Origin: an uncultured Erysipelotrichaceae bacterium
GTDB taxonomy: Bacteria; Bacillota_I; Bacilli_A; RFN20; CAG-826
Assembly: GCA_900317165.1 (NCBI GenBank)
Contig: ONFU01000006.1
Location: forward strand, 1-37,788
Direction of reading: 5' to 3'
Length of the DNA stretch: 37,788 nucleotides
Shown piece after piece: positions 1 through 32,778 of the stretch; the stretch's first letter is position 1, and every line of letters starts with the position of its first letter. The position numbers and the translations under genes were made by a program. The notes beneath the pieces were generated by a model. That model ran no database searches, was not told where the DNA came from, and was given only the letters and a program-made list of their open reading frames with translations.

Positions 1-3000
1 GTTTCCATCCGGATATAGGGTTTTTCCATCGCTTCCTCAATGGCCTTAATGGTCCCTTCCTTATCCTTATAATAGGAAACGGCATACACTTTCACGATTT
101 TCCATTCCAAGGAATTAAAGACGTTAAGCTCCACATATTCCTTATCGCGTAGACTCGCGGAGGAGACCTCGCCATCATCGTCGATTAGGATGCCTAAAGC
201 ATAGGAATCCATGCTCTCGCCACGGATTGCGATATCGACCTTGTTCTTGCTCTCCCCGACATTGGTATCGCATAGATACCCTTTCCTTTCGAGGTCCTTG
301 CGGAGGAAATCGACGATTTCTAGTCTTGGAGAGGTCTTGCTTTCCTCTTCCTTTTCATAACGGATTTCCTCGCCTTTTGCGTAGGTGAGGAAGTGCTTCA
401 TGACAAGGGCCCCTTTGTTGGTAATCAGCTCGTCACGATCGAAATCCTCATCATCGATCGTGGATATGACATACATCTTCCTCTTTGAACGGGTGATCGC
501 GACGTTAAGACGCCTTTCGCCTCCACTTGAGGCAAGAGGACCGACGATGACCGCCCTTCCAGAAAGCGACTTACGGAAGCCGATGCAAAGGAGGATGATG
601 TCCCTTTCGTCCCCTTGGACGTTTTCGATGGATTTGATGAATAATGGTTCCCCACTAGCAATCTCGGCCTTATGGATTTTCTCTTCCAAAGCCGTATCCT
701 TTTCCAAATAGGTCTCCAAAGCCTTCTCCAAGGATTCCTTCTGCTTGATATTGAAGACGATGATGCCAACGCTAAGCGAGGCGTTTTCCTCCTTGGAATA
801 GATGAGGCTTAGTCGCCTTAAAATGGCCTTTATCTCTTCTGGAGATAGGCGTGTATCGCTTTTCTCTTCCTTTAGTTCGACCTTCTCGAATTTCAAAGCC
901 CTCTTGCCCTTATAGGAAGAAGGGAAGGTATGGAGTTCCTTGTCATAGAAGGTTTTGTTGGAGAAATCGATCAGCGATTCATGACGGGAACGGTAATGGT
1001 AGCATAGCCTGATGGAGGGGAAATCGATCGCTAAGCATTCATCGAGAAGGCTAGAGGCATCCATATAATCGTAATCGGCCTTGGAGATCGTTATATCGCT
1101 GGTGAAATAGGTCGTCGGAGGCATCTGCTGGGGGTCTCCGGCGATGATGAGGCTATTTCCTCTAGCGATAGGCCCAATCGCCTCGTGGACGGGGATTTGG
1201 GAGGCCTCATCAAAGATGACCATATCGAATTTCTTGATCTTCCTAGATGAATCGACCGATAGGTATTGGGCCGCGGAAAGAGGGGACATCAGGAAGCAAG
1301 GGAAATAATCGCGGATGATCTCATCGTATTTGATGAGGGTATCGCGGATAGAGACGCCCCTACCACCGCTTGAAGCGACTTTCTTCAAACTGCCGATTGG
1401 GGATGAGCCCTTGTATTCCATCCTGCCGTGGGTGAGGTTTTTCGTGGCTCTTTCGGTCACGGCCTCGATGACGGACTGCGAATATTCCCCGATTAACTGA
1501 CGGTATCTCTCTTTCGTCGCCTCGAATAAGGAAGGATGGAAATCATTGATCAGACGGTTATTGAAATAAAGCTTGATTAATTCCCTAGCGAAGGTCGCCT
1601 CAAATGTCGTGCCAAGAGTATCCAAGGAGAGGTTTTCGTTTTTGAAGGCCTTGATGAAAGGAAGGGCGATCGCGGGGGCCCTGGTAATTTCAAGGTTGAG
1701 GTGAGCGATATCGATGAGCTTACGGATGTTCGCTTCGCTTGTTCCTTCTTCTAACATCTCCATCAAGCAGTCGAGAGGCTCCTTGCCTTTCGTTTCGAAG
1801 TCGCTAGGTTCAAGATGGTATTTGAGGAAGAAGGAATCCTCGATTTCACGGAGGTTATCCTTTGCCTCTATTAAGGAAGCGATGGTTTTCCTCAAGCTTT
1901 CCTCCCTATTCTTAACAACTTCGTCGAAATAAGAATCGACTTCAGCCTTAGGAAGATAGCTATAGAGTTCCCTGACTTTTCTTGAATAGAGGAAAGTCTC
2001 ATCGAATTCCCCCTTAATGGCTTCAAGATCTTCGATGTTCTCGATTAAGGAAAGAGGGAAATAATCCCTAAAATGGGAATATTCCGCGGATAGATCCTTA
2101 TATTGTTTTTGATAGGAAGAGATATCTTCTAAGACTTTCTGATAGGAATCCTTATGGATTTTGCCTTCCCCTAAATAAACAGTCTTTAAGGCCTTTTTGA
2201 CCTTCTTGTTCCATTTCCTCTTATCGAGGAAGCCATTGGCCTTACGCCTTTCCTCAAGGAGTTCGCTCGCTTCGATCATCTGGATGCCCTTCAAATTGAA
2301 GGCCTTCTTAATGGCAAGGCGATTCTTAAGGGTCTCTTCCGCCATTTCGAATAGGCAATCTAGCTCCTCCGCGTCTTCTAGTTCAAGGATATTCTTGATG
2401 CAGGAAACGGAAAGATTTCCGTTCAAGGCCATATCCATCGCGAGAAGGTAATCGCCGATTGCCTGATAGGAAAGAGGGAATTTCAAGGGGCAAGAGGATA
2501 TCGCTTCAAGATAAAGGGAGAGGAAAGAGGATATCGTTTCCTTGTATTTTTGGAATTCTTCGCTCGCTTCATGGATATCGGAATAAGCGAAGAAATCGAG
2601 GCCGATGCGTTTAAGGTGGCTTTCCTCAATCCCCCCGATTCGCTTCACCAAGGAAGAATATTCGTTAAGGAAGGAAAGGGCCTCGAAATATTTATCCCTC
2701 TCCGTTTCCTTTATCAAAGACAAAGGAAGTTCGAAATAAAGGGTCTTGGAGGAGAGGTTCAAATCGAGGGTGACCGCCTCAAAGAAGGAAAGGCAATAGG
2801 TATTGACTTCATGCATCGCGGATATCGTTTTGCGGATATCCTCTCTGCGGAGTTCGAGCTCATTCACTTCCTTACGGAAATCGGAGACCCCTTCGGTGGG
2901 GCCTAACCTCATCGATTCGTTTAATCTACCGAAGAAATCCCTCTTATTGGCTTTGTTAGAATGGAGTTCAAGGCAGAAACGGTCAAGCTTGATTTTCGCA

Positions 3001-5551
3001 AGACGCTCCGCGACGACATCGAGGGCCGCTTTCTTTTCGGCGACGAAAAGCACGCTTTTGCCGTGGTATATGGCATTGACGATCATGTTGACGATGGTCT
3101 GGCTTTTCCCCGTTCCTGGAGGCCCATCGAGGATGAACGATTTCCCTTCCGCGGATTCAAGGATGGCCGCAAGTTGGGTGGAGTCATAGGGAAGAGGCGC
3201 GGCGAAATCCAGATAATTCTCGTTTTTCTCCACGCTTTCTAAGGAGATGGAAGACTTATCTAGTTTGGATTCCTGATCAAGGATCGAGGCGATTATTTTG
3301 TTGGATTTTAGTTCTTCTTTCCTCTTCCTCATATCAAGCCACATGATGTAATGGGAGAAGGTGAGGTTAGCAAGGAAAAAGGCGGTTTCATCGAGCTTGA
3401 TATCGTCTTCGACATGTTCTTTGAAGGTGCGGACGATATCGTAATAATCGTCCTCGCTATCGATCGAATAAAGTGGGGACATGTCAAAATCCGGATGTTC
3501 CAATTTGTAATATTCGAAGAAGGTTTTGTTGAGCATGACGTCATCGTAATCAAATGACATCGTATAGGTCGCACTCCCTAATCCCTTCCTCTCGATTTTG
3601 ACCGGTAAAAGCATGAATGGGGCGGTGGCCCTTTTGAATTCCCCTTTCCTTATTTCCTTGGTGACGAAAGTCAATAATCCAAGGCAAAGGTAGAGGGTCG
3701 GTGCGCCCGTTTCCTCAATTTCCGATTGGTTTTTGGAAAGGATCGAACGGAATTGCCTTTCCTTCCCGTAAATGTAGGTCGCGTTAAGCTCGCTTCCAAT
3801 GGGCAAAGACGATCTATCCGCGTTAAGGACGACATCGATTTGTTCTGCCCTAGAAGGAAGGTTTGGAGCCTCAACGAAACGGCAGGGAATCGGTTTATCC
3901 TCCTTTAGCAATGAAGGAAGGCTATTCGAAATCAGCTTAACAAAGTTGCTGGGACTGAAACGGAATGAGACAAGGGGGTTTTTCTCGGTTAGGTCGAGGA
4001 GTTTGTTCTCCCAGAAGGTGAACCTATCCTTGACCTCCTCATGATGGACTTCATGATAGGAACGTTCGATGATGGTCTCTAGGCGTTCCTCACTTAATTC
4101 CCGGAGAATGCTCGAGGTATCGAATTCCTCTCCGCTAGAAGAGGATGAAATAGGAAGGAATATGCTTCTATGCGCGGATAAAACGTCGACCGCAACGAAG
4201 CTTTCCCCTGTATAATCCCTTAATCTCGCCTCGGCGTTTTTAACCGCGCGAGGGAAGGAAACGACCGCGGATGAAAGGTCGACCGCGTCGATAAGAAGAA
4301 TATCGCCTTTTCCGGTTACCCTATTGTAGAAAGCCCCGAATTTAGCAAGACGCGAATTCTCGAATTTATCCTTTTCATTTAGGAAAACGCCAAGCATCGC
4401 GTGGTCATCGGTCAACACGAGAATCGGATGGAATCCGACTTCCAAAATTATCGAAGCGTAAAGGATAGCTAGGTCAAGGCAAGTGCCTTTATGGTCGCGG
4501 AGGACTTGGGAAGGCAGCCTGACGCGTTGGAATTTTGAGGTTGAGGCCGGAGGGTTTTGATAGGCAATTTTCTTTTCCGCGAGGGCATTCCAAAGAGCCC
4601 CGAGTTCGGCAGCCCTATCGTTTAAATCCTCGTTTTGGTAGGCAATGAAGCGATGATGGGGGCTAATTGAGGCGGCTTCGAGGGTGAATTTGCGGATTTC
4701 TTCCGCATTGGGGGTCACGAATTTGGACAAAATCCTCGCATCTTCATTTACGGTGGAATTGCTTTCTCCAATAGGGAGGATTAGGAAATCTTGGTTAAAG
4801 GATGATATGACCCTTCCTTTTGAGGAGATAATCTCCGCTTTCATTGAGGAGGGCAATGGCTCATCAAGAAGCATCAAGGCGGCTTTATCGGCCTTGATAT
4901 AGGGGGCTCTTAACCTAAGGCATTCCGCGCTTTCCAAAGCGGGGATAACCATCTCTTCGATTTCCAATATTGGGGAAGAGAAGGTAAACCTCATGGTTAG
5001 CCCGCGTAAGGAATAATCGGAACTATTGTCGATTATGATTCCTTTGATGAATTCATAACCGGTGGATTCCTCTTTCTTGCTCTTCCTTTTCTTCTCAAGA
5101 ATCCTTATCGCTAAGTCGGTTTCGTAGGTCAATAAGGAAAAGGATGGTTCGGTTTCTATCCTTATTATTAATTGCTCAGGGCTGATCAAATCGTCTGGGC
5201 TTTCCTCTTCCTCCAGGCTGGATTCCTCTTCAAAAATGAAATCCTCTTCCAACGCTTCTTCCTTCTCTTGGGTTTTTTCCTCTTCGATGGAGGTTTTCTC
5301 CATTGAGGCCATCGTGTGTTTGGAAAGGTCTTCCTTCTCCGCGAAAGCCTCCACTTCCAGCATATCGGAAGGAAGCAAAGGCAAGTCCTCAAGGGTATAG
5401 AAATCGCCCGAATTGACGTTCCAAACCCCATCGACTCCCTTGATGAGAATCAAATCGCCGGGCTTTATCGATTCGTCTTTACTTAAAACGCTCAACGTTT
5501 TATCCGCGTTGGAGACCGAGAGGACATAATACTTGGCAGAGACGATTTCCA
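1..5551 (-). CDS. DUF4011-type superfamily 1 helicase with transglutaminase-like and Vsr-like nuclease modules (C-terminus cut by window)
   Basis: One uninterrupted reading frame of about 1850 codons runs on the minus strand from an ATG at 5551, preceded by TAAGGA, to the left edge, so the C-terminus is missing. Read by eye, the order is: an N-terminal region ending in an acidic linker (residues ~90-120); a transglutaminase-like core (~305-400) with GTCLDLA and DDHAMLG supplying the Cys and His; a DUF4011-like start (WENKLLDLTEKNP, ~516); Walker A GPPGTGKS (~810); a long helical insertion; Walker B DEASQIP (~1447); GDPQQMPP (~1470); helicase motifs VQGDERD (~1642) and NVAITRSKRKMYV (~1680); and a PD-(D/E)XK/Vsr-like segment with VDIAIRG and LGILIDDDG (~1770-1790). 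It would act as an ATP-dependent nucleic-acid translocase with a tethered nuclease. From memory, DUF4011-helicase-Vsr proteins have been reported as antiviral. The architecture is clear, the biological role is inferred. Confidence 0.88.
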
Positions 5552-5708
5552 TGTTCCTTAATAGGATAATTGCAAAAGGTCGTTTCATAAAGATTTTTCG
5601 CTATATTTTTCCATTAGGAAAAGCACCAAGAAACTTAGGAAAACCAAGGATAGGTAGACACTGTCCAAGTTTTCGGATTATCAGGATTAAAATAGCTTGA
5701 TTTGCCGT

Positions 5709-16843: not shown

Positions 16844-19800
16844 TTAAACCCTCTTGAGGGTGATTCTAGCAAGATAGGTGCCATCGGCTCCGCTTCTAAT
16901 AGAAGAGACATCAAATGTCCAACCTAAGGCTTTCCCGCTATCCATCAGGCCATCGTTAACATAGAACTGCTTAGAGTATTTCTCCATGTCGAAGTGGTCG
17001 CCTTCATGGAAGAGGGCCTCGCTGATGCTCGTGTTCGCCGTCTTATAGGTTTCGTCTTCTTTTTCCCTGATTAAATGGAGGACATCGGGACGGAGATCGA
17101 TGACGTTAGGTGAAGAATAGACGGTCCAGTTTGTGTATTTATGACGGGTATAACTTTCGATAACGCTATTGACGTGCCATAGCCTTATGCCGACATCGTC
17201 GGAATGATAAAAGAAGTCATAGTATTTAGCGTGGAATTCGTTTAATCCGGTCGGGGTGTATAGCTCAAGGAGGAAGTATTCGTCGAAGACACCTTTTTCG
17301 CCATCGAATTTCGGCGTCAACATGATGAGGTCCCCGCTGGATTGACTATCGGAGATATCGATTTCGAATTCATCGCCAACCGAATAATCGGAAGCGTCAA
17401 AGACATATGGCTTCTCCCAGCCAATCGCGAGTTTGGAATAGGCATCATGGCCACCAAAGCTCATATCCTGCATGGAGAATCCGCCGGCTGGACGGAAGCG
17501 TTCTGTGGTATCGCCTAACGGATGCCCGTATTCATCGTAATAGTCGGTCAAACCGAAGCTATGCCCAAATTCATGGATGGAGGTATTGGCTTCGAGTCTA
17601 TCGTTCTTGAACTTCGAGAGGTCTGGGGTCTTTAACTGAGTTTCAAGCGTTTCGCCTTCGGCCCCATCGAGTCCATAAATATCCATCGCGGAGGAGAAGG
17701 AGTAATCGGAGAAGCCGTCAGATGAGCCGAAATGGTTCGAATTGAAGGCGCGGGAATAATAATCGGAAGAATATGCGTTCGCCCCATAGAAGATATGGAG
17801 AGCGTCGAGCATACCATCGCCATTGGAATCAAAATCAGCTACCGTTTTGCCGCTATTTGCAAAATACCAGTCAAAGGCGGCTCTTGCTAATTGATCTTCG
17901 GTAATTCTTCCGGAAGTCGGATTCTTGTAGTTGCTTAATGCGGTCGAAGGATAATCGACGACGAACCAATCAGAAACGACGCCAGAATAATTGAAGACGC
18001 CATGGGATTCCTTTTTGTAATAGGAAGCGACGGATTCCCATTCGACTTTGTCATTCGCTTCGCCAAATACGACTTCGTTAAGGTCCTCCCTAATCTGTTC
18101 TTTTTGGTTCTTCCCATTCGCGTCGCTCATGTTGACGTTGATGAAATTGCTTGAATCCGTGAACCAAACGGGGATTACGAGTCCTTTGACATCGCCAGAT
18201 TTTGGAGTAACGGCCCCCACGTTTTTCCCGTTGATGAGGCTGCTATAGGAATTTGGCATATCACGTTTTGGATAGGAGGAAGAGGAGGAAACCTTCACGT
18301 TGAATGACTGCTCGAGGCGTTCGCCACGGAGTTCGAAGATGAAGGTGACTTTCTTGATGTCCTCTTTATCGGTATCCTCGACATTGACAACTAATCCATC
18401 CTCTTTGGTGACGTAGATTTCCCTGCCAATATCGAATGTGACCTTTACGCCTTTGCTGGTAAAGACCTTGCCGTTAACGATGGAAACGGCATCCGCCCCG
18501 CCTTCGATTTCCATTTTCACAGGTTTCGATTCGTCGATTACTTCGAGGGTGAAGGAAATTGAATAGGTTCTTGTAACTTCCGCCAAATCCGTTTCCTCAA
18601 CGGAGAAAGAAGCATTGACGGTCCCAACCTTTCTGGCCCTTATGGAATCTTTGGTGGCAATTGAGGCGATGGAGGAATCGGAAAGGCCACCCGCAAGGAT
18701 GAGGGGACGCTCGGCCCCGTTATAAGTTAGATAGAAGGAAGTATCGATATAGCATTGGATTTTCACTTTATCCCCATCTTTGATCGGGGTCTTGTTCGGC
18801 CCATAGCAAAGCTCGAAATTCCCTTCACCGATTCCGGTTGGGATAGCGCATCCCTTGACGGACTTAAGAAGCTCATTCGTGGAGGCGTCATAGACTTCGG
18901 CCACGAAACGGACGCGGTAATAATATTTGGGTGAGGTCTGATTGATCTTCATGCAGGGGACCCCGTCGATTTCCACGAACTCGAGGGATTCATGCAACGG
19001 GGTGAAACGGCAATAGGTTTCTTTGGTGTAGTCAGCCACGCTCAATTTTGGGCATGGGTAATAGTTCCCGCCATACGGAACGTTGATTTCGTATTGGCCG
19101 TAAAAGTTATCTTCGATCGCCTTGACGCTTACCCTTTCATCGTCGGAAACGAGTTCCGCGGTCAATTCCGGATGGGGGTCCGCGATTATGGCCTTGATTC
19201 CCGCGGTGGTGATTTTCGTATCGCCAACATAAGCGGTTATCCTAACCCTTCCATAATCCCCGATGAAGGATTCTTGAGAGGCTTTTAATAGACCCATGTC
19301 ACTGATTTCAAACTTTTCTTCGCCATATGTAAGTTCATAGACAAAGGTCGCGTTTTTGAAAAACTCCAGTTTTGGATTGAATTGATATTCGCCTCCAGAC
19401 CTCATTTTGAGGATATAGCCGTATTCGCTTTCGTCGTAATAGAGGTCATCGCTTTCGGTGAAACTGATGGTGTCGCCATATTCGCCATGGGCGTAAACGT
19501 TGACTAACGCGGATTGCACGGACTTTCCGTTTTTGTCCATGCTAACTTTGACGTAAGTGTTTGAAGAAGCATAGCTGAAGGACTCATCAATAGAGATTGC
19601 TCCTTTTTCATCGAGGTTAAGCCAAGTGTTGGAGGCAACGTATTTGGAATAGGAAATAGTGTATTCGTTGCCTTCATATTGCCCTAAATCGGCGTTGATT
19701 TGATAGGTTTCGCTTTTGGCAAGGTGGAGGGAATATTCCTTTTTCGCGGAGTCATAGGTTAACTTATCGTCGATATGGATGATAAGCTCGGGGACTACGC

Positions 19801-19969
19801 TAATTGGGGAAGAGGTCGAGATGCCGCCACCTTGGCTAGAGGTCGAGGCGCCGCCACCTTGGCTAGAGGAGGATGAGCTTTTGGAACTCGGGCTTGGGAA
19901 AAACGAGCAAGAAGAAATGAGAAGCGGTGAGCAAAGCAACAACGCTTTTCCTAATTTTGGTTTTTTCAT
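16844..19969 (-). CDS. Secreted M6-family metalloprotease lipoprotein
   Basis: The 1041-residue protein starts at the ATG at 19969, which has GGAGG 7 nt upstream; the 40 codons in frame before it lack a signal sequence. The lipobox is LLISSC with Cys21, followed by a Ser/Gly-rich linker. Residues ~60-600 hold several strand-rich Ig-like or Big-type segments. The catalytic part follows, with a Ca2+-type loop DSNGDG (~713) and the zinc site HEFGHSFGLTD (~798-808), an HExxHxxGxxD metzincin-type motif as in immune-inhibitor-A-like M6 peptidases. It should be anchored outside the membrane and degrade extracellular proteins. It is much longer than the catalytic core because of the N-terminal modules. 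Flavodoxin follows on the same transcript. The promoter lies in the 126-nt gap shared with a divergent gene. Confidence 0.88.
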   Translation of the reverse strand: MKKPKLGKALLLCSPLLISSCSFFPSPSSKSSSSSSQGGGASTSSQGGGISTSSPISVVPELIIHIDDKLTYDSAKKEYSLHLAKSETYQINADLGQYEGNEYTISYSKYVASNTWLNLDEKGAISIDESFSYASSNTYVKVSMDKNGKSVQSALVNVYAHGEYGDTISFTESDDLYYDESEYGYILKMRSGGEYQFNPKLEFFKNATFVYELTYGEEKFEISDMGLLKASQESFIGDYGRVRITAYVGDTKITTAGIKAIIADPHPELTAELVSDDERVSVKAIEDNFYGQYEINVPYGGNYYPCPKLSVADYTKETYCRFTPLHESLEFVEIDGVPCMKINQTSPKYYYRVRFVAEVYDASTNELLKSVKGCAIPTGIGEGNFELCYGPNKTPIKDGDKVKIQCYIDTSFYLTYNGAERPLILAGGLSDSSIASIATKDSIRARKVGTVNASFSVEETDLAEVTRTYSISFTLEVIDESKPVKMEIEGGADAVSIVNGKVFTSKGVKVTFDIGREIYVTKEDGLVVNVEDTDKEDIKKVTFIFELRGERLEQSFNVKVSSSSSYPKRDMPNSYSSLINGKNVGAVTPKSGDVKGLVIPVWFTDSSNFINVNMSDANGKNQKEQIREDLNEVVFGEANDKVEWESVASYYKKESHGVFNYSGVVSDWFVVDYPSTALSNYKNPTSGRITEDQLARAAFDWYFANSGKTVADFDSNGDGMLDALHIFYGANAYSSDYYSRAFNSNHFGSSDGFSDYSFSSAMDIYGLDGAEGETLETQLKTPDLSKFKNDRLEANTSIHEFGHSFGLTDYYDEYGHPLGDTTERFRPAGGFSMQDMSFGGHDAYSKLAIGWEKPYVFDASDYSVGDEFEIDISDSQSSGDLIMLTPKFDGEKGVFDEYFLLELYTPTGLNEFHAKYYDFFYHSDDVGIRLWHVNSVIESYTRHKYTNWTVYSSPNVIDLRPDVLHLIREKEDETYKTANTSISEALFHEGDHFDMEKYSKQFYVNDGLMDSGKALGWTFDVSSIRSGADGTYLARITLKRV
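19812..19865. repeat. Two tandem 27-bp units encoding the Ser/Gly linker
   Basis: Two adjacent 27-bp copies differing at two positions encode the 9-residue repeat SSQGGG plus (A/I)ST just after the lipobox of the metalloprotease. The copy number could vary by slippage, changing the length of the surface tether. Confidence 0.75.
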
Positions 19970-19997
19970 ATTCGACCTCCAAAACTTTCGCAAGCGA

Positions 19998-20024
19998 ATT
20001 ATACTCCCTTCGCGCAATTGCGCG
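19998..20024 (-). promoter_or_regulatory. Promoter -10 and palindromic operator of the metalloprotease operon
   Basis: Read on the minus strand, a perfect TATAAT (19998-20003) lies 28 nt upstream of the start. A perfect 14-bp palindrome, CGCGCAATTGCGCG (20011-20024), sits over the spacer/-35 position. No -35 consensus is visible, so a regulator bound at the palindrome is a reasonable inference. Confidence 0.55.
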
Positions 20025-20095
20025 CACTCAAGTATTACCCCTGCCCTGAAGTATTTTTCTCTTCCCTTTTTCTTTTCCTCGCATATCATTAAAGC

Positions 20096-23671: not shown

Positions 23672-24307
23672 TTATTTGCGGAGTTTATAGTTCGCGATGA
23701 GGATGAGGATTATCTGGATTGGGGCCCCAACGGAGAGGATGAACCAAATCTGTTCGGGCTTTTCGTTAACAAAGCCAAATTGCACGCAGAAAGAAATCAA
23801 CAATGACCAAACGAAGAGGGATAGCAAGACGATGACCGCAACGCGGTTATGGAAGAATTTCCAAACCTCAAAGGCCGCGAGGAAGGCTCCTGCCGGGACC
23901 ATCCAAAGGAAAACGATGAGGTTCCTGATCCAATGTTCGCTCCCTTGGAAGATATAGTCGGAGAAATAGATGGAGAAAGCGACGAGGACCACGAAGGTCA
24001 TGGTCATCGATAATATCAAGGCCTTATTGGTCTCCTGCCTTTTCTTCTCTTTTTGGGCCTCTTCGTTAACGGTGACCTCGTTGATGGATTCTTCGTTTTG
24101 CTCGGTCAATAGGTAATCGACGGTGACCCCAAAGAAACGGGCGATATCGATGAGGATATCGACGCTTGGGGCGGCATATCCGAGTTCCCATTTGGAAATC
24201 GATTTGTCGCTATAATGGATTTTCTCAGCAAGTTCTTGCTGGGTGAGCCCCCTGGCTTTGCGCAGGGCGGCGACGTTTTTCCCGATGATTGAGGCGAGGT
24301 TGTTCAT
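23672..24307 (-). CDS. Membrane-anchored XRE-family regulator
   Basis: The 211-residue protein combines an N-terminal XRE/Cro helix-turn-helix (GKNVAALRKARGLTQQELAE and KSISKWELGYAAPSVDIL, residues ~9-50, then ARFFGVTVDYLL) with four hydrophobic helices in its C-terminal half (~97-120, ~133-155, ~160-183, ~187-208). Such fusions are common in Firmicutes and probably sense an envelope or membrane signal while bound to DNA. The ATG at 24307 is chosen because the HTH starts a few residues later. A TTG six codons upstream is possible, but neither has a ribosome binding site. CACAAT ends about 6 nt before the ATG, which could be a -10 of a leaderless transcript. It is the first gene of the probable XRE-tetR-pepF unit. 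Confidence 0.83.
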   Translation of the reverse strand: MNNLASIIGKNVAALRKARGLTQQELAEKIHYSDKSISKWELGYAAPSVDILIDIARFFGVTVDYLLTEQNEESINEVTVNEEAQKEKKRQETNKALILSMTMTFVVLVAFSIYFSDYIFQGSEHWIRNLIVFLWMVPAGAFLAAFEVWKFFHNRVAVIVLLSLFVWSLLISFCVQFGFVNEKPEQIWFILSVGAPIQIILILIANYKLRK

Positions 24308-24370
24308 GAGACTATTGTGCCACAAAAGGAGGGAAAATCAAACTTTCCTTTGGAAATGCGTTCAAATAGA

Positions 24371-27300
24371 TTAGGGTTTAACCGTATATCCAAGCGAGGT
24401 TCTACTCGCGAATTTGCTATCGAAAACAGAAGAAGGAATCGAGGATTGGGTGGTAACTGTATATCTTTTCCAAAGGGTTCCGGAGCTCTTCGTGCCGGTG
24501 AACATCGTGAGCTTATGGGAAGATGAATTCCAGGCGTTCTCGTATTTGCCGATTGAGGTGATGTTCTTTATCGATAGGGAGAGGGTCGCGCTAGCCGCGG
24601 AGATACCGATGATCTTCAAGGCCAATGACCCGCTCGCGCTATATAAGGACTCCTTGGAATAATTCTTCCCATTGGATGAATAGGTGACGGTCTTGCCATT
24701 AATCGTGAGGTCAAGATTCTCAAACATTGATACATGGGTCAACGCTTTCATGGAAATGGAGAGATTCCAAACGGGGTTTTCGAATGACCCGGAGGTGGAG
24801 AAGGACTGGATGAGGTCCTCACCATGGATCGATTGCTTGGAGGAGGAATCGCCCGAAAGGTTATCGGTGATGATCGAGCCCATGTTGAGAATGTATTTCA
24901 AAAGCCAATCGAGGAGGTTATCCGAGAAATCGGAGCCTTTGACCCTGACCTTATCACTATAGGTTTTGTCGCTTGTAAGGGTATTCTTTTGGATGCGGAT
25001 CCTTTCCATATAGAGTTCGCCGCTTGAATCGTCGCCATTGGTCTCATAATAGATGTTCGTATAGGTGTTTTCGGAAACGACATCGACGATACCGACCGGT
25101 TTGATTTCGGGAATGGTGACGTTCGCGGCCAATTTGATATGGGCCCCATCCAAATATATGAAGGCATCGATATCGATGTTGTAGGTCTTCGTGAGGATCT
25201 TCAAGGGGATGCTCGCGTTCAAATGGTAGGTCGTTAGATACGATTCGTCCGTTACCCCTAGGGTGATGGTTCCCAAAAGGAAGCTGACGAGATGGGATAA
25301 GGAGGAGAAGGAGATGAAATCGTTAAGAGAATAAGACGAACCAATCCAGTTATAATCCGGTGGGTTAACCGAGAAATCGGTGGAGTCGAAATCAATTTTG
25401 ACGTAGATTTCGTTCCCATCGGATTTTACCGAATTCGCATAAACCTCGATGGTCTCGAGCTTGCCAACGCGGTCAATTCCTTCCGAATCGGTATAGTTTT
25501 CCGCAAACTTCAAACGGAGATTGAGGGGGTAATCATCATGGATGACGCCTTGCTTGATGACGAAGGTATCGGTACGGGTCGCGTTATTGATATTCGCGGA
25601 AAGGAGGAACCCACTCGCGAGGACTTCGAGATAACGCCCGTCGATCAAAGCCCCCAAGACGGTTCTTGAGGTCAAGGAAGAGAAGGAATTCGTCAATCTT
25701 TTGAAACGGGGATCGGTCGAAGAGAGTAAGCTCGCGACCGTATCAAGGACATCATTAAGGGAATTGATGGAGAACCTTCCCTTAAGGGGGTTACCTTCTG
25801 GCTCGGTCCTTTTTTCCGCGGATTTGGAACTATTGTTCTTGGAGTTATACTCAACAAGCATATAGCCTGTGTCGCCTTCGTTTCCTTGGTAATCCTTCAA
25901 GGCCGAATCCGTTTCATTTGAAGGACCCGTGACATCGACTTTGAGGTTATGGTCTTGGAAGAAATGTTCCTTATGGTCGGTGATGGTCGCTTTGCCAGTC
26001 CCTATCTTTTCCGCTAAATCAAAGCCCAAGGAACCCGAGAAGGAGAAGCCTTGTCTATCGAGCGTCTTGTTCCCGTTATAGGAAGGAAGGGTATAAGAGG
26101 TGACGGCCGTTTCGCCTTTTTTGGCGAAATAGCCGGAGAGGGAAATGGAGAGCTGATCGTTTTCCGCGATATCGTTGATGGTGTCTTCGAGTCCTGGGAG
26201 ATGTTCCAATTCCGTATATCCGGTTTTATCGAAAACTGTCTCCTCATAATCCATCACCTCGAGGGTACCATCGAGGATTAGGCTTAATTTGGGGGAACTT
26301 GAGGAAACGATACCCGCGGATTCGAATGTCACCGATAGAAGGTCGAGGTTATTGGAGGAAAGGGTGACATAAGCCTTCCCCCTTCCGTTAGCCTTACTTA
26401 GATCGAGGGTCGCGTAAATCTCGTTATTCGCATGGGTTAACGAGGTGACCATCGATATAAGGCCTTCGTAATGGCCTTCGTTTATATCGGTGTAAACGAC
26501 GCTTTCCTTAATCGCGTCGATCGCTTCGCTCAATGAGCCTAAGGATACAAGGAAGCCGGAAAGGACCTTCATAATGGTATCGTTTTGGATGCTTTCATCG
26601 CTTAAGGCATCGCCTGTTGAGGAAGCGAAATTTGATAACGTTTTGATGTTTGTCTTGGCCTTAAGGATGTTATTGAGATTGATGTAGGCTTTTCCTTCGC
26701 CTTCTTCTTCTTCGATATGGAGAGCAAGGTATTCATCATTTCCATTTGAGGAGAAATCCACCTCACCCGTGACATCGTTATAGGAAGTGGAGAGATCGAC
26801 GTTCGCGGATAAATCGAGGTGACCATCCTCTTCGATTTCGTCGCGGGCGAAATGGGTGTCGTCGCCGATGACCTCCTCTTCGATATGGGTGATATCCAAA
26901 TTCGCGGAGATCCCGAATTTCTTATGGGATATCTTATTCCCTATCTCCTTTACGAGGGCCAAGGAATCCCCGAGCACTAGATAATCTTCTTCTTCGTAAG
27001 GCAAGGTGAAGGAAGGGGATTCGCTAGGATTGATATCCGCGGAAAGGGATATTTCAAATCCATCGTTAAAGGAGAAGGAAGAGAGGTTGTTCTCGTTATC
27101 AAGAGGGAAATCGACGTGGTTAAGGATTCCCTTTTCGTTGCTTCCTAAACCAAACGATAGGGTATCCTCGCCTAAAGGGAGATCCAAACGGAAATAATGT
27201 TCGGAAAGGGAAACCATGTGGTTGGTGGCTTCTCTGAATTCCTCGAAATCAAAGGCGAGTTTTTCGCCGTCTCCTCCTTTGAGGCTTATTTCTTTGATAT

Positions 27301-27823
27301 CGAATGATTCAAGGACGGAATAGACGAAATAATCAAGGCTGCCGTATTCGTAATAGACGATGCCCCTTGTCAATTCGTCTTCCTCGCTTTCGTCATAGGC
27401 GGTGACGTTCGTCTTAAATTTGATCCCGCCATCGTTAGGCCAGGAAAGGGAGAAGTAGAGGCTCTCGTTTTTCAAGGTCAAGTTGGCCTCGCGCTTTAAG
27501 CCGTTGTAATCAAGCGGCAAATCGATTGAGGCGTTGATGCCATGGATCGAAGGCTCATCGATTCTAAGGTTTATGGAGCCGTTTTCGATTAAGACGTTAT
27601 TGTCCTTCCCCTCGATTTTCCCAGGAATCTTCAATGACAATTGGTCGATATCTAGGCTTAGTCCGCCCGTTACGGCATCGCGAAGCTGATAACCGATTTC
27701 AAGAGGCTCAATATCCTCGTTTTCTTCAGGAAGGGCCCCGACTTTATTCGGGGTGCATGAAAGCAAAAAGGACCCCATGAGGAGGGCGGATAAGAAGAAT
27801 TTTGTCTTATTTCCTTTTTGCAT
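24371..27823 (-). CDS. Giant secreted lipoprotein, paralogue of the 1255-aa neighbour
   Basis: The 1150-residue protein has a lipoprotein signal (Lys-rich N-region, hydrophobic core, SFLLSC with Cys23). The mature part is dominated by alternating polar/hydrophobic residues, suggesting long beta-sheets (SINLRIDEPSIHGINASIDL, NLTLKNESLYFSLSW). It aligns by eye along its whole length with the upstream gene product: GSNEKGILNHVDFPLD versus GGNENAVLNHVDLPAK, GFEISLSADI versus GMDLSLSADI, FFQDHNLKVDV versus YVQDHNIKLGL, LIDGRYLEVLASG versus ILDGRYFDLLTYRG. The family is unknown to me. It would sit on the outer face of the membrane. It is the last gene of a three-gene operon, 57 nt after its paralogue, and its ribosome binding site lies within a GC-rich hairpin. 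It lacks the Ca2+-type loop of its paralogue. Confidence 0.85.
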   Translation of the reverse strand: MQKGNKTKFFLSALLMGSFLLSCTPNKVGALPEENEDIEPLEIGYQLRDAVTGGLSLDIDQLSLKIPGKIEGKDNNVLIENGSINLRIDEPSIHGINASIDLPLDYNGLKREANLTLKNESLYFSLSWPNDGGIKFKTNVTAYDESEEDELTRGIVYYEYGSLDYFVYSVLESFDIKEISLKGGDGEKLAFDFEEFREATNHMVSLSEHYFRLDLPLGEDTLSFGLGSNEKGILNHVDFPLDNENNLSSFSFNDGFEISLSADINPSESPSFTLPYEEEDYLVLGDSLALVKEIGNKISHKKFGISANLDITHIEEEVIGDDTHFARDEIEEDGHLDLSANVDLSTSYNDVTGEVDFSSNGNDEYLALHIEEEEGEGKAYINLNNILKAKTNIKTLSNFASSTGDALSDESIQNDTIMKVLSGFLVSLGSLSEAIDAIKESVVYTDINEGHYEGLISMVTSLTHANNEIYATLDLSKANGRGKAYVTLSSNNLDLLSVTFESAGIVSSSSPKLSLILDGTLEVMDYEETVFDKTGYTELEHLPGLEDTINDIAENDQLSISLSGYFAKKGETAVTSYTLPSYNGNKTLDRQGFSFSGSLGFDLAEKIGTGKATITDHKEHFFQDHNLKVDVTGPSNETDSALKDYQGNEGDTGYMLVEYNSKNNSSKSAEKRTEPEGNPLKGRFSINSLNDVLDTVASLLSSTDPRFKRLTNSFSSLTSRTVLGALIDGRYLEVLASGFLLSANINNATRTDTFVIKQGVIHDDYPLNLRLKFAENYTDSEGIDRVGKLETIEVYANSVKSDGNEIYVKIDFDSTDFSVNPPDYNWIGSSYSLNDFISFSSLSHLVSFLLGTITLGVTDESYLTTYHLNASIPLKILTKTYNIDIDAFIYLDGAHIKLAANVTIPEIKPVGIVDVVSENTYTNIYYETNGDDSSGELYMERIRIQKNTLTSDKTYSDKVRVKGSDFSDNLLDWLLKYILNMGSIITDNLSGDSSSKQSIHGEDLIQSFSTSGSFENPVWNLSISMKALTHVSMFENLDLTINGKTVTYSSNGKNYSKESLYSASGSLALKIIGISAASATLSLSIKNITSIGKYENAWNSSSHKLTMFTGTKSSGTLWKRYTVTTQSSIPSSVFDSKFASRTSLGYTVKP

Positions 27824-27833
27824 AAATGGATTC

Positions 27834-27868
27834 GCCCCTCCCCTAGGAACGAAACAAAGGGGAGGGGC
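27834..27868 (-). promoter_or_regulatory. Intercistronic hairpin covering the RBS of the giant lipoprotein gene
   Basis: A perfect 10-bp GC-rich stem (27834-27843 with 27859-27868, GCCCCTCCCC and complement) with a 15-nt loop lies between the two paralogous genes. On the minus strand its 3' arm contains GGGGAGGGG, the only candidate ribosome binding site, about 11-13 nt before the ATG at 27823. There is no T run after it, so it is not a terminator. A role in translational coupling or mRNA stability is inferred. Confidence 0.65.
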
Positions 27869-27880
27869 ATGTATTAGTTT

Positions 27881-30800
27881 TTAGGCAATCCCGAGGTAGA
27901 GGTTACGTCCAGCTGGGATTTCGTCTAGGCCGATGTAGTTATAGCCATAGAGCGAGTAGTAGGGGTTGTTTTTGTCATCGCTTTGGAAACCGTTGACGAG
28001 GTCATAGAGATCGCCTTTGGCTTCTGCGTCGATGATGCCGTTATCGTTAACGTCTTTGACGAAGAGGTTAGCGTATTCGCTTCCGAGTCCATTGACTTCG
28101 GAAATGAGGCCATCTGCGTCGAAATTGGTGAGGCCGATGGTGACGTCAGCTTCCGCGAAACGGAGCTTGCTGCCATCGTTTTCGGCGGTAGCGTCAGCGT
28201 AGACGTTGGCTTCGAGTCCGGTAAGGCAACGGGCATCGAATCCGGAAGCGCTATGGAGATCGGTGGAGGTGAAGGTCAAATCGGCATTGCCGATGACGCC
28301 AATTCCAAGAAGGGCACCCAAATCAAGGGAGATGGTGTAGGCCCTGCCGTTGGTGAGGTCTTTGGTGAAGAAACCGTTGAAGCAATCGGCGACATGGATA
28401 CCTTTCTCGTCGAAGAGGCCTTTCTTTGGTTTAGCTTCTTCTTCGTTATTGACTTCTGGTTCCTCGGGTTCCTCGTTTTCATTCTTGGCGAAGAGGGATT
28501 CATCAACGCCCAAGGTGTATCCGAGGACCCAGTTAAGGAAATCGCCGTTATAGTCTTTGCCATCGATTCTGACCGCGTCCTTGACGTCTTTGATTCTTCC
28601 ATAGGAGGAATCGCGGGTGAGGAGGAGTTCGCCATCTGGATCGACTCCGTTAGCGTAGTAATAGATTTTGGAATCGCGTTTGCCCTCTAGTTCGTTTGGA
28701 CGGAAATAATGGGCATCGTCAGGTCCATTGAGTCCCCTGATGACTGGGAGATTGGAGAAATCGGCCATGAGTTTGGTCTCGGCCCCTTCAACGGAGGCGT
28801 CGAGGGTGAAGCCATAGACGTTAAGGCCATATCCCGCGACCATGAGATCGACGGAACCTTCAAGTCCATAATAGGAGACGCCCGCGAGGTTGCCATCGTT
28901 ATTCTCGACCACGCCCATCGTGAGGGTGTTGAGGAGCTCGTTGCCCATCGAGGCAAGAGGGGTGAAGTCGGTGAATCCTTCGAAGGAAGAGAAGGCTTCC
29001 GCGGAGGCTTCGCCTAAGGTATCGATGTCGGAGATCGTCAAATCGAATTTGTTGACGTTATCCTTCTTGACGAGGACCTTAAGGTCGGAAAGGCCTTTTT
29101 CGGCTCCGTTACCTTCTTCGTCTCCGCCATAGGTCTGTTCGGAATCATAGGAGAGGACGAGGTCGATCTTGATGCCATCAAGGCCAAGAGCGTCCCCGCT
29201 GATGGTGACTTTGGTCTGTTCGCCAAGGCTAACGTCTTCGAGGATTCCGCGATAAGTCAGCAAATCGAAGTAGCGGCCATCGAGGATATCGCTAAGCAAG
29301 GAGCTGCTCGCTTCGCCCATGATGGAGGCGCCAAGACGGGAGAACCTATCGTCGCCCCTGACGAAATCGAGGAGGAAATCAAGGCTAAAGCCATTGTCCT
29401 CGCTGAAGATTTCCTTCGCGGCATTGAGGTCGATTAAGCCTTCAATTCCCTTTTCGGATTCTTGGGAAACGGTCGCTTTTCCGGACTTGGACAAGGAATC
29501 GTAGGAGAAGCCGATCTTCTTCATATCATCCTGCAAGCCAAGCTTGATGTTATGGTCTTGGACATAGGTGTCCGCGAAATGGGTGAGGGTAAGATCGACC
29601 TTGCCTTCTTTGGTGGTAACTTCGCCTTCGCCTTCTTTGGCGAAATCGAAGGCGAGTCCGCCACCGATTTCAAGGGAGTGGTCGACGCCGTTTTCCTTAT
29701 AGAGGTTGCCGTTAAGCGAAGCCTTGAAGGATTTATCGTCCGCGATGGCTTTGATTTGGCCACCCAAACCTTTGAGGTGGGAAAGGGATTCGTATTCTTT
29801 GTCGGAACCGTATTCGGGTTCTTTTGGGGTTTCGAATTCGCTGGTCTTAATCTCGCCGTTAAGGGAGATGGAAGCGAGCTCGATGTCCTTCAAGGTGATG
29901 CTAAGCAAGGAGGAGTCGTTTCTTCCGGAAACCTTGAGGATAACGTTACCTGATAATCCTAAAGGAGCAAGGCTAAGCTCAATGGTGATGAGGTTATCTT
30001 CGCCCTTGATCAAGGAGACGACGTCGAGGACGGAGACGAAGGTCCCGTCTTCGATTCCCTTAACGAGGGAGGAATTCATAATCCTATCGATTTCATCGCC
30101 AAGGCTTCCAAGAAGTTTGGTGATGGAGGAAAGGTCCATCTTCTCCTCGGAGGAACCGCTGAAAGCGTCCTTCAAGACGTTGGTGTAGAACTCATCGAGG
30201 TAGGTCTTGCTGGTTTTGGCTTTGAGGACGTCGTTGACGTTGAGGTATCCCTGGTAGCCGTTTTCCTCTTCAAGATAAGCGACTCCGATGCGGTGTCCTT
30301 TGAATTCTTCGCCTTCTTCACGTTTCTTATCGATGGTGATGTTGGCATCGATTCCCTCGAGGGCGCGTTTTTTATTGCCTTCCTCATCGACTTTGAAAGC
30401 ATCGATGTTGGCGTCAAGATGAAGGAGTGCCGCTTCGTCGACGGAGGATTTTTTCATGACGGTGCGGGAGCCTTCCTTGGCTTCCTTTCGATGGCCAATT
30501 TCTAAATCGGCGGTCAAACCGATTTCGGGTTTGGCGACGACTTTGGCGATGTTGCGGAACAAAGCGGCCGAATCGGCGAGATCGCGGTATTCTTCCGGAT
30601 TGCCATAGATGGTGCTAGCCCAGTCGATGTCCTCGCCGTTGTTGACGAGTTTTCCGCCGATATCCGCGGAAAGGGAGAGGTCCATGCCGTCTTGGATATG
30701 CCAAACCGGATTCTCAAGGGGATGTCCGTTCTCGTCGAACTTAGCTGGCAAATCGACATGGTTAAGGACGGCGTTTTCGTTACCGCCAAGACCGAGTTTG

Positions 30801-31648
30801 ATGGATTTGTCGCCAAGCTTAAGGTTCCAAATGAAGTAAGCGGTGTTATCCTCACCGCCGATATTGACCATCTCGTTAAGGGAAGTGAGAATCTCATCGG
30901 TATCGATGGAAGAAGTGGATTCCTCTTCTTCCTCTTCCTCAACGGAGACGCTTCCGGTTAACTTATCAAGCCATCCCTCGAAGGAGACGGAGATACCTCC
31001 ATCGGAAAGGATCTCGAGGATATCGGCGATAAGCCAGTCCAATTTACCGTATTCGTATTGATAGGTACCGCGGGTCGTCGGGTCTTCGCTGTTCCCGTCG
31101 ATCTCTGTTTCGTAAGCGGCGGTTGAGATCTTGTATTTGAAGTCCCAGCTTCCGCCTTCGCTTCTTTCCCCGCCAACGCTATCCGCATTGCCCCTATCGG
31201 CAAGATTGAGATAGAGATTGTCGTTAACTAATGAGGCGTGGATATCGCGATACTTGGCATCGGTCCCGTTATTGGAATAGATGACGGGAGCGGTGAGGGC
31301 GAAGTTGACGCCGTGGAGGTTAAGCTCTTCGAGAGCGAAATCAAGGGTCGCCGGGTTTTCTGGATCGACCGTGATCGTGTTATGGCCCTCTTTGGCGTTT
31401 TCGCCGGTGTAATAATGGTCGAATTTGAGGTCGTTGATCTCGACATGGAGACCCGCGGTCGCCCCTTCTGCGAGGTTGTTGACGAATTTCTCGCGGAAGG
31501 TAAGTGTTGGCTGGGACGGTGTCGAATGGTCGCGAAGGTCAATGACCGTGACATTTTGGGGGATGACGAAGAAGGCCGTGGCCGCGGAGGCGGCGAAGAC
31601 TAGGCCAAAGGCCCCAATCGTCGTTGCTGTCTTAAGTTTCTTATTCAT
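27881..31648 (-). CDS. Giant secreted or membrane-anchored beta-rich protein (1255 aa)
   Basis: The 1255-residue protein has an N-terminal signal or anchor (KKLKTATTIGAFGLVFAASA then TAFFV, residues ~4-28) without a lipobox Cys. The body consists of repeated strand-rich segments of alternating hydrophobicity (TLDFALEELNLHGVNFALTA, DGMDLSLSADI, LTADLEIGH, GLTNFDADG). An acidic low-complexity insertion (EEEEEEE) lies at ~240 and another (EEPEEPEVNNEEEAKPKK) at about 1080. Near the C-terminus, DVNDNGIID at ~1199-1207 is an EF-hand/dockerin-type Ca2+ loop. It is an end-to-end paralogue of the next gene product. No known family is recognised. The sheet-forming pattern would suit an elongated adhesin or a hydrophobic-groove lipid carrier, but that is speculation. 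AAGGAG lies in the 22-nt gap after the preceding gene, so the genes are co-transcribed. Confidence 0.85.
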   Translation of the reverse strand: MNKKLKTATTIGAFGLVFAASAATAFFVIPQNVTVIDLRDHSTPSQPTLTFREKFVNNLAEGATAGLHVEINDLKFDHYYTGENAKEGHNTITVDPENPATLDFALEELNLHGVNFALTAPVIYSNNGTDAKYRDIHASLVNDNLYLNLADRGNADSVGGERSEGGSWDFKYKISTAAYETEIDGNSEDPTTRGTYQYEYGKLDWLIADILEILSDGGISVSFEGWLDKLTGSVSVEEEEEEESTSSIDTDEILTSLNEMVNIGGEDNTAYFIWNLKLGDKSIKLGLGGNENAVLNHVDLPAKFDENGHPLENPVWHIQDGMDLSLSADIGGKLVNNGEDIDWASTIYGNPEEYRDLADSAALFRNIAKVVAKPEIGLTADLEIGHRKEAKEGSRTVMKKSSVDEAALLHLDANIDAFKVDEEGNKKRALEGIDANITIDKKREEGEEFKGHRIGVAYLEEENGYQGYLNVNDVLKAKTSKTYLDEFYTNVLKDAFSGSSEEKMDLSSITKLLGSLGDEIDRIMNSSLVKGIEDGTFVSVLDVVSLIKGEDNLITIELSLAPLGLSGNVILKVSGRNDSSLLSITLKDIELASISLNGEIKTSEFETPKEPEYGSDKEYESLSHLKGLGGQIKAIADDKSFKASLNGNLYKENGVDHSLEIGGGLAFDFAKEGEGEVTTKEGKVDLTLTHFADTYVQDHNIKLGLQDDMKKIGFSYDSLSKSGKATVSQESEKGIEGLIDLNAAKEIFSEDNGFSLDFLLDFVRGDDRFSRLGASIMGEASSSLLSDILDGRYFDLLTYRGILEDVSLGEQTKVTISGDALGLDGIKIDLVLSYDSEQTYGGDEEGNGAEKGLSDLKVLVKKDNVNKFDLTISDIDTLGEASAEAFSSFEGFTDFTPLASMGNELLNTLTMGVVENNDGNLAGVSYYGLEGSVDLMVAGYGLNVYGFTLDASVEGAETKLMADFSNLPVIRGLNGPDDAHYFRPNELEGKRDSKIYYYANGVDPDGELLLTRDSSYGRIKDVKDAVRIDGKDYNGDFLNWVLGYTLGVDESLFAKNENEEPEEPEVNNEEEAKPKKGLFDEKGIHVADCFNGFFTKDLTNGRAYTISLDLGALLGIGVIGNADLTFTSTDLHSASGFDARCLTGLEANVYADATAENDGSKLRFAEADVTIGLTNFDADGLISEVNGLGSEYANLFVKDVNDNGIIDAEAKGDLYDLVNGFQSDDKNNPYYSLYGYNYIGLDEIPAGRNLYLGIA

Positions 31649-31670
31649 GGTTTTAACTCCTTAAGTCCTG

Positions 31671-32615
31671 TTATAGGGTTTCCGGATAGGCCGGGAGGGT
31701 CGAATCCGGAGAGGGGAATCCGTAATCTGGCGTTCCCAAGTGGTATTCGGTTACGAGGCTTTGGGTGGCCGGGCTTCCGAATCCCGCTCCTGTTGTGGCT
31801 GTATATCTTTCATGGGTCACGAATCGCTTCGGCAGCAATTCGTCATCCAGATAGAACGTTAGGTGACAATATTCGAATGGTGGTGGATACTTGAGGCTCG
31901 ATATCGTCTGCATCTGCTTTTGGTAATTGAGGACCCCTTTCTTTGGGTCTAACTCGATTTCCACCTTGTACCCCCCGCCTTCGTTTTTGGTGAAGGAGGT
32001 CGGCCCTTCCCCTGAAAGCGGGTCGCCTTCAAGGAGAGTTCCCGGGGCCACGATGTAGATGAGTCCATTGGAGACGTTTCTTCCCATCATCTCTTTGTAT
32101 TCCGCGTTGGAATAGGTTTTCTTCTCGTGAGATGCATAATTTGGGTTATCTCCCCAATAGGTGTCAGTTGTTTCGCCTTCTTGGAACATCCTATCGTAGA
32201 GGTTCACAAGCCCAAGGGAGTTGCTTTCCTCGAAGAAGCGGTCGCCCTCTTTTATGGTTCGCGATTCGATGCGTATCTTTACGTGTCCTAGGTCAGCAAC
32301 CGATCCGCCGATCCCTACCGTATAGGTGTTTTCCAGTTGCTCGAACAAGTAGTAAGCGGCATTGACTGCTTCGTCCGGTTTGAGGGAGAGGTAGTTCCCA
32401 CTGGCTTTCGCTTTGTTATAGGAAGCGATCACCGACTTCATATCGACTGTTACCTCATCGACAAGGTATTGGGTTTGGTCAGGCCTAACTACTTTGGCGA
32501 GGACGATCCCGGTTATGACCCCGGCGAGGACAACGCCAAAACCGACGCCGCCGTAGATGCCGATTCTGCGGAGACGCTTGTTTGAATTGTTTTTCTCACT
32601 CACTTCGTTTTTCAT
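31671..32615 (-). CDS. Single-TM anchored extracellular protein, first gene of surface operon
   Basis: The product of 314 residues (321 if the ATG at 32636 is used) has a short basic cytoplasmic N-terminus, one transmembrane helix (IGIYGGVGFGVVLAGVITGI, about residues 20-42), and an extracellular domain of ~265 residues. The latter starts helical (VTVDMKSVIASYNKAKASGN then DEAVNAAYYLFEQL) and becomes strand-rich (HVKIRIESRTIKEGDRFFEE, GYKVEIELDPKKGVLNYQKQ, CHLTFYLDDELLPKRFVTHE). The pattern of strands after an N-terminal helix is vaguely like LppX/LolA-type lipid-binding folds, but I cannot assign it. The ATG at 32615 has AAGGA 6 nt upstream and is preferred. The alternative at 32636 has only AAAGGCG. 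Its stop is 22 nt before the 1255-aa gene. A hairpin and several AGAATTG repeats precede it. Confidence 0.78.
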   Translation of the reverse strand: MKNEVSEKNNSNKRLRRIGIYGGVGFGVVLAGVITGIVLAKVVRPDQTQYLVDEVTVDMKSVIASYNKAKASGNYLSLKPDEAVNAAYYLFEQLENTYTVGIGGSVADLGHVKIRIESRTIKEGDRFFEESNSLGLVNLYDRMFQEGETTDTYWGDNPNYASHEKKTYSNAEYKEMMGRNVSNGLIYIVAPGTLLEGDPLSGEGPTSFTKNEGGGYKVEIELDPKKGVLNYQKQMQTISSLKYPPPFEYCHLTFYLDDELLPKRFVTHERYTATTGAGFGSPATQSLVTEYHLGTPDYGFPSPDSTLPAYPETL

Positions 32616-32652
32616 ACTAGGTCCTTGACCGGCCATATTAAGCGCCTTTATG

Positions 32653-32688: not shown

Positions 32689-32778
32689 AGAATTGCAATT
32701 CTCCAAATCGTAGAATTGCCATTTCATTAGAAGCATTCGGGACTTTTTGTGATCTGTTTTCTCAACAGTAGAATTGAG
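32689..32778. promoter_or_regulatory. Cluster of AGAATTG motifs, including a 14-bp palindrome, in a divergent promoter region
   Basis: AGAATTGCAATTCT at 32689-32702 is a perfect palindrome next to a possible minus-strand -10 (TATATT, 32682-32687). TAGAATTG recurs at 32711-32718 and at 32769-32776, the latter inside CTCAA-N8-TTGAG (32761-32778). The arrangement suggests multiple sites for one DNA-binding protein controlling the surface operon, hypB or both. Confidence 0.45.

Follow-up and report, generated by a model that had tools for sequence, protein, structure and literature searches.

A locus encoding two paralogous giant surface proteins and a single-pass partner

We analyzed a 37,788-nt stretch of DNA (the window), contig 137 of the 1.66-Mb genome assembly of an uncultured Erysipelotrichaceae bacterium. 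An earlier note, made from the sequence alone, had described three adjacent genes on the minus strand, here termed C, A and B. Our open reading frames agree with it on their positions, their lengths and the 22-nt spacing between C and A; A and B are separated by 57 nt:

31671 to 32636, minus strand: gene C, 321 aa, of a family seen in 169 of 279 genomes of the order
27881 to 31648, minus strand: gene A, a 1255-aa giant with an N-terminal transmembrane (TM) anchor and four repeat domains
24371 to 27823, minus strand: gene B, a 1150-aa lipoprotein (lipobox LLSC) with four repeat domains

A and B are paralogous end to end, as the note had judged by eye: blastp aligns them from residue ~50 to ~1100 (204 bits, E = 2e-57, 25% identity), and the profiles of the two families match each other with E = 1e-163. 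The predicted topologies also stand. C has a short cytoplasmic N-terminus, a single TM helix (residues 31-49) and an extracytoplasmic domain of ~270 aa; A carries a hydrophobic N-terminal anchor without a lipobox, and B is a lipoprotein. The surface location proposed in the note is likewise supported. Both giants are acidic (pI 4.4-4.6), and their C-termini, read directly, lack an LPXTG-type sorting signal. A Ca2+-type loop (DVNDNGIID) pointed out in A proved not to be a general feature, as it occurs in only two of 21 A proteins, that of the window and a 98% relative. Against the closest relative, dN/dS is 0.04 for C, 0.05 for A, 0.07 for B and 0.07 for the regulator described below; such purifying selection indicates that all four are real genes.

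The three proteins belong to no recognised family, in keeping with the note. Searches of C, A and B against Pfam and NCBIfam, and profile searches of PDB sequences, gave nothing credible, and when 45 giants and 43 C proteins were compared with Pfam the matches were scattered and none was consistent. AlphaFold predictions of B (with A and near-identical relatives) and of C reached a pLDDT of only ~30, and the models were unusable. A contig scan with a single-protein query recovered one close relative only, and a search of viral contigs found no relatives of the operon, and hence no sign of a prophage module. Four features described below had escaped the note: a four-fold internal repeat, fused forms, a regulator and an operator.

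Each giant consists of four copies of one domain

Comparing segments of 79 giants with the remainder of each protein at the profile level revealed an internal repeat of ~245 columns. Each giant is made of four copies of one domain of ~215-250 aa, which map to the window as follows:

30605 to 31495, minus strand: A repeat R1, residues 52-348
29759 to 30553, minus strand: A repeat R2, residues 366-630
28922 to 29761, minus strand: A repeat R3, residues 630-909
28076 to 28924, minus strand: A repeat R4, residues 909-1191
26999 to 27697, minus strand: B repeat R1, residues 43-275
26183 to 26947, minus strand: B repeat R2, residues 293-547
25265 to 26185, minus strand: B repeat R3, residues 547-853
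24425 to 25267, minus strand: B repeat R4, residues 853-1133

The repeats match one another in hhalign for R2-R3 (E = 7e-20), R1-R2 (2e-10), R1-R4 (1.4e-5) and R2-R4 (2.4e-5). Direct R3-R4 and R1-R3 comparisons were not significant, so R1 and R2 provide the links among the four units. Local scores were 40-133 for matching pairs and stayed below 26 in reversed-profile controls of different repeats. A merged repeat model resolves four clean tandem units in compact homologues, such as the 948-aa giant of locus L105 (residues 56-233, 260-467, 474-692 and 737-875). A MAFFT alignment of the eight window repeats conflicted with this profile mapping and was dropped. Profile comparisons detected no relation between C and the giant repeats.

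Hydrophobic periodicity supports the beta-type sequence that the note had described, and suggests that each unit has strands on either side of a central helical segment; the domain is probably beta-rich. This layout bears on a reading in which the system handles lipids or other hydrophobic ligands. The repeats would then be half-barrels of the LolA/LppX kind (strands, a helical lid, strands), the tandem giants a chain or bridge for lipids or scavenged hydrophobic molecules, and C a single-domain partner. The domain size and the strand-helix-strand order that we infer do resemble those of LppX_LprAFG, LolA-like and DUF6612 carriers, and an all-beta stalk would not normally have, in domains of ~215-250 aa, a helix flanked by two runs of alternating strands. 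Among the fused homologues, one reaches E = 0.0097 with LppX_LprAFG (PF07161), in register with a repeat, but the same profile scores a phosphoglucomutase higher (E = 0.003). The hhalign comparison with DUF6612, made with few sequences, stayed at noise level. The relation to LppX, LolA-like or AsmA proteins raised in the note thus finds no detectable sequence or profile similarity. AsmA/TamB bridge proteins are likewise large, membrane-anchored, probably beta-rich and repetitive; in contrast to them, A and B have no AsmA, DUF3971 or TamB match in Pfam, their repeats hold helical segments, and no outer membrane is expected here. The single-copy state of the system and its dedicated membrane regulator (below) would suit lipid handling, while the lack of a consistent Pfam match among the 45 giants and 43 C proteins, and of a conserved adjoining transporter gene, speaks against it. 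The lipid-carrier reading is structurally plausible without sequence support, and we consider it unlikely on balance.

The giant pair arose by duplication from a two-gene unit

The gene-order survey that the note had proposed shows C-A-B order maintained across relatives in the genus, at about 20 loci. In other genera of the order, C is followed by a single giant. This two-gene unit is ancestral in the order, and the duplication into A and B is an event of the genus. With the A profile, 114 of the order's 279 genomes show a giant; a wider giant profile recovers one in 38 of 80 genomes that had been negative with the A profile, so that the giant system is present in at least 152 of 279.

In a tree of the giants, the A copies fall in a single clade (support 0.999) next to the B copies, whose own clade has a support of only 0.43; most likely, the duplication occurred once, at the base of the genus and a close neighbour. 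Tandem duplication followed by specialisation, as the note had it, agrees with this tree and with the different anchors of the two copies. A copies share a hydrophobic anchor with a conserved tail, PQK, and about 17 of 21 downstream copies have a lipobox when their N-termini are read (15 by a stricter scripted pattern). A second tandem pair, at L093, looks independent in the tree, with low support, and there too the downstream copy is the lipoprotein.

C-giant gaps are mostly 0-30 nt (54 loci), and C and giant distances correlate (mirror-tree r = 0.84), as those of linked genes should. Normally present once per genome and in housekeeping neighbourhoods, the system in this respect fits a core envelope function more readily than a variable adhesin. 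Among the loci compared, no conserved enzyme, transporter or secretion partner stands beside the operon.

Some C homologues occur alone. Those at L125:9655-10539, L126:10057-10941 and L127:9245-10129 have lipobox-like N-termini and lie in mraY-positive genomes with no giant, regulator or operator alongside; the C domain may be put to a separate use in them. Three others, of ~500 aa (L162:8108-9676, L163:2660-4156 and L167:8897-10327), have ~200 additional residues at the N-terminus and no adjoining giant.

C and the giants are fused in other Bacilli

In another family of the same order, at L128, a 989-aa open reading frame combines a C domain (residues 53-275) with giant repeats (252-968). A class-wide search with a wide C profile identified further fusions outside the order, where the C domain forms the N-terminal part of very long open reading frames:

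L149, 2802 aa; L150, 2840 aa; L168, 2636 aa; L151, 2477 aa
L165, 2472 aa; L166, 2180 aa; L159, 1801 aa; L157, 1361 aa

All eight have an N-terminal TM helix and giant-type matches behind the C domain. L159 lies in a complete genome of 1,554,229 bp, which from its size may be that of the wall-less Acholeplasma palmae J233. Some fusions carry tip modules at their distal ends: LRR_5 scores above cut-off in L149 and L150, and the ends of L166 and L168 show weaker LRR_5 or Listeria-Bacteroides repeat (List_Bact_rpt) matches below it. No giant part was detected behind C in L152, L154 and L155, long open reading frames that run off their contigs. By the logic of gene fusion, the joining of C and giants in one chain suggests that they act together outside the membrane. 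No regulator gene was found beside the fused forms.

A 1710-aa C-domain protein at L152:5813-10945 has a PF24716 (WapI-like) match above cut-off at residues 422-567, which could reflect either biased composition or a new insertion.

A membrane regulator and a single putative operator accompany the operon

The note had taken the operon to consist of three genes. The genes are real, but their number is too small: the gene after B is their most conserved partner, and the operon thus extends to include it. Upstream of C lies a palindrome:

23672 to 24307, minus strand: regulator, an HTH_3 (XRE-type) domain followed by four TM helices; alternative TTG start at 24325
32695 to 32719, unstranded: putative operator, palindrome GCAATTCT-N9-AGAATTGC, 59-83 bp upstream of gene C

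The HTH_3 match is strong (E = 5.5e-18), and the four TM helices recur in most of 52 homologues. This family is the commonest neighbour of the system (49 of 63 loci). In 27 loci its gene sits immediately upstream of C in divergent orientation; in the window's genus it follows B or separates A from B.

When 57 regions upstream of C were searched for dyads, TCTC-N7-GAGA turned up in 29; shuffled sequences gave at most 10. The combined core pattern, ATTCTM-N7-KAGAAT, is present in 40 of the 57, at 2.65 per kb upstream of C versus 0.106 per kb elsewhere in the same loci. The window site is a perfect palindrome (0.03 expected), and its core is the sole copy in the 1.66-Mb genome. Five whole genomes (G000, G030, G269, G111 and G259) have one core each, which by its coordinates falls upstream of C at this locus. 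Of the three cores in G005, two lie upstream of C and of B; G010 has one elsewhere and lacks the strict form at C. The site is found in 36 of 44 loci with a regulator gene in the stretch and in 4 of 13 without (Fisher p = 0.001), a comparison that includes short contigs among the 13 and treats related loci as if independent.

From its sequence, the regulator is predicted to hold its HTH domain in the cytoplasm and to control the operon through this putative operator. Transmembrane transcription regulators are a recognised class (PMC10269533). The regulator resembles them in combining an HTH domain and TM helices in one chain and in adjoining its proposed target operon; it differs in its HTH_3/XRE domain with four TM helices, its lack of a large extracytoplasmic sensor domain and its proposed single genomic target. 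The close pairing with the operon and the unique operator could also mean that C, A and B are extracellular sensors acting on the regulator, in the manner of co-component systems, rather than its output. Two proteins of more than 120 kDa would be a large investment for sensing that governs its own operon, and the fused forms have no adjoining regulator; we regard this arrangement as very improbable.

Relation to cell wall loss

The window's genus and nearly all of its family lack mraY, which is present in 21 of 279 genomes of the order. One study reports no sortases in RFN20 and predicts two RFN20 families to be peptidoglycan-deficient (PMC10868615); we infer that the window belongs to one of the two. 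Taken together, the lack of reported sortases, the predicted peptidoglycan deficiency and the missing mraY make membrane anchoring the expected route to the surface.

An idea that the system replaces a lost cell wall, prompted by an initial zero overlap between A-profile matches and mraY-positive genomes, was abandoned when that separation vanished with a more sensitive giant profile and at class level. The sensitive profile detects a giant in 5 of the 21 mraY-positive genomes of the order, and in the class 13 of 26 genomes with a C domain have mraY, which shows that the system does not depend on wall loss. The same counts weigh against A, B and C forming a dense protein coat that shields a peptidoglycan-less cell. 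Such a coat would fit the lack of mraY in the genus and nearly all of the family, the acidity of the giants and the presence of the system in what may be the genome of wall-less A. palmae; we judge it improbable.

A model for the surface complex

The anatomy of the system (paralogy, repeats, fusion, conservation and uniqueness of the operator) is firm. The reading of it that we favor, with a probability of roughly 0.5, is a multi-domain binding or adhesion complex that is extracellular, anchored in the membrane, divided among subunits and served by a dedicated regulator. C would be the membrane-anchored base, A a TM-anchored arm and B a lipid-anchored arm, each arm with four domains of ~215-250 aa. 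Assembled into one complex, as their sequences and fusions suggest, the three would be the split and partly duplicated counterpart of the fused protein of other Bacilli (anchor, C domain, many repeats, variable tip). The complex would reach out from the membrane and bind or adhere to external material, and the regulator, acting through the single palindromic operator upstream of C, would tune its output to a signal at the membrane. We favor binding or adhesion because of the anchors, the long repeated chain, the tips of fused homologues and the absence of conserved enzyme, transporter or secretion partners; this role is a prediction from sequence, and A and B of the window have no recognised ligand-binding tip.

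The closest parallels to this model are BspA-LRR and Listeria-Bacteroides-repeat proteins, which are likewise exported and anchored through the N-terminus, string repeated domains into long chains and contain the LRR_5 or List_Bact_rpt modules that tip some fused homologues. In contrast to these proteins, the repeat of ~215-250 aa is new, the anchor is a TM helix or lipid with no C-terminal sortase signal, and the system is split into subunits and normally confined to one locus per genome.

The passages that we searched of two papers on these lineages (PMC10868615, PMC7301438) do not mention such proteins, and further literature searches found nothing on them. A large uncultured order of Bacilli has, in at least 152 of its 279 genomes, a surface system without a family name in the libraries searched, and other orders have it in fused form. 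It represents a very large coding investment for genomes of ~1-1.7 Mb and faces outward on cells mostly without peptidoglycan genes, and so may govern the contacts of these gut bacteria with host or neighbours. More tentatively, it may be an undescribed class of extracellular machine in Bacilli, built from a new repeat domain in four to about ten copies, either as one chain (up to ~2,800 residues) or as an anchored base with separate TM- and lipid-anchored arms, under a one-target membrane regulator; it would bridge or decorate the envelope of gut bacteria with a reduced wall. A dedicated regulator and a single genomic operator open the role of the system to a test with one gene, one DNA site and one readout.

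Other features of the window

The gap between A and B contains a hairpin:

27834 to 27868, minus strand: GC-rich hairpin, fold -26.6 kcal/mol, no T-run

Hairpins of unrelated sequence occupy the same position at L023, L026, L038 and L039, and in other congeners the A-B gap is 3-22 nt; the hairpin could possibly control the A:B ratio. Near the operon, 16844-20089 encodes a large protein (1081 aa) that weakly matches Peptidase_M6 (immune inhibitor A type). At 3-5588 lies a large helicase-nuclease of DUF4011-AAA_11/12-MTES_1575 architecture that resembles candidate defence proteins.
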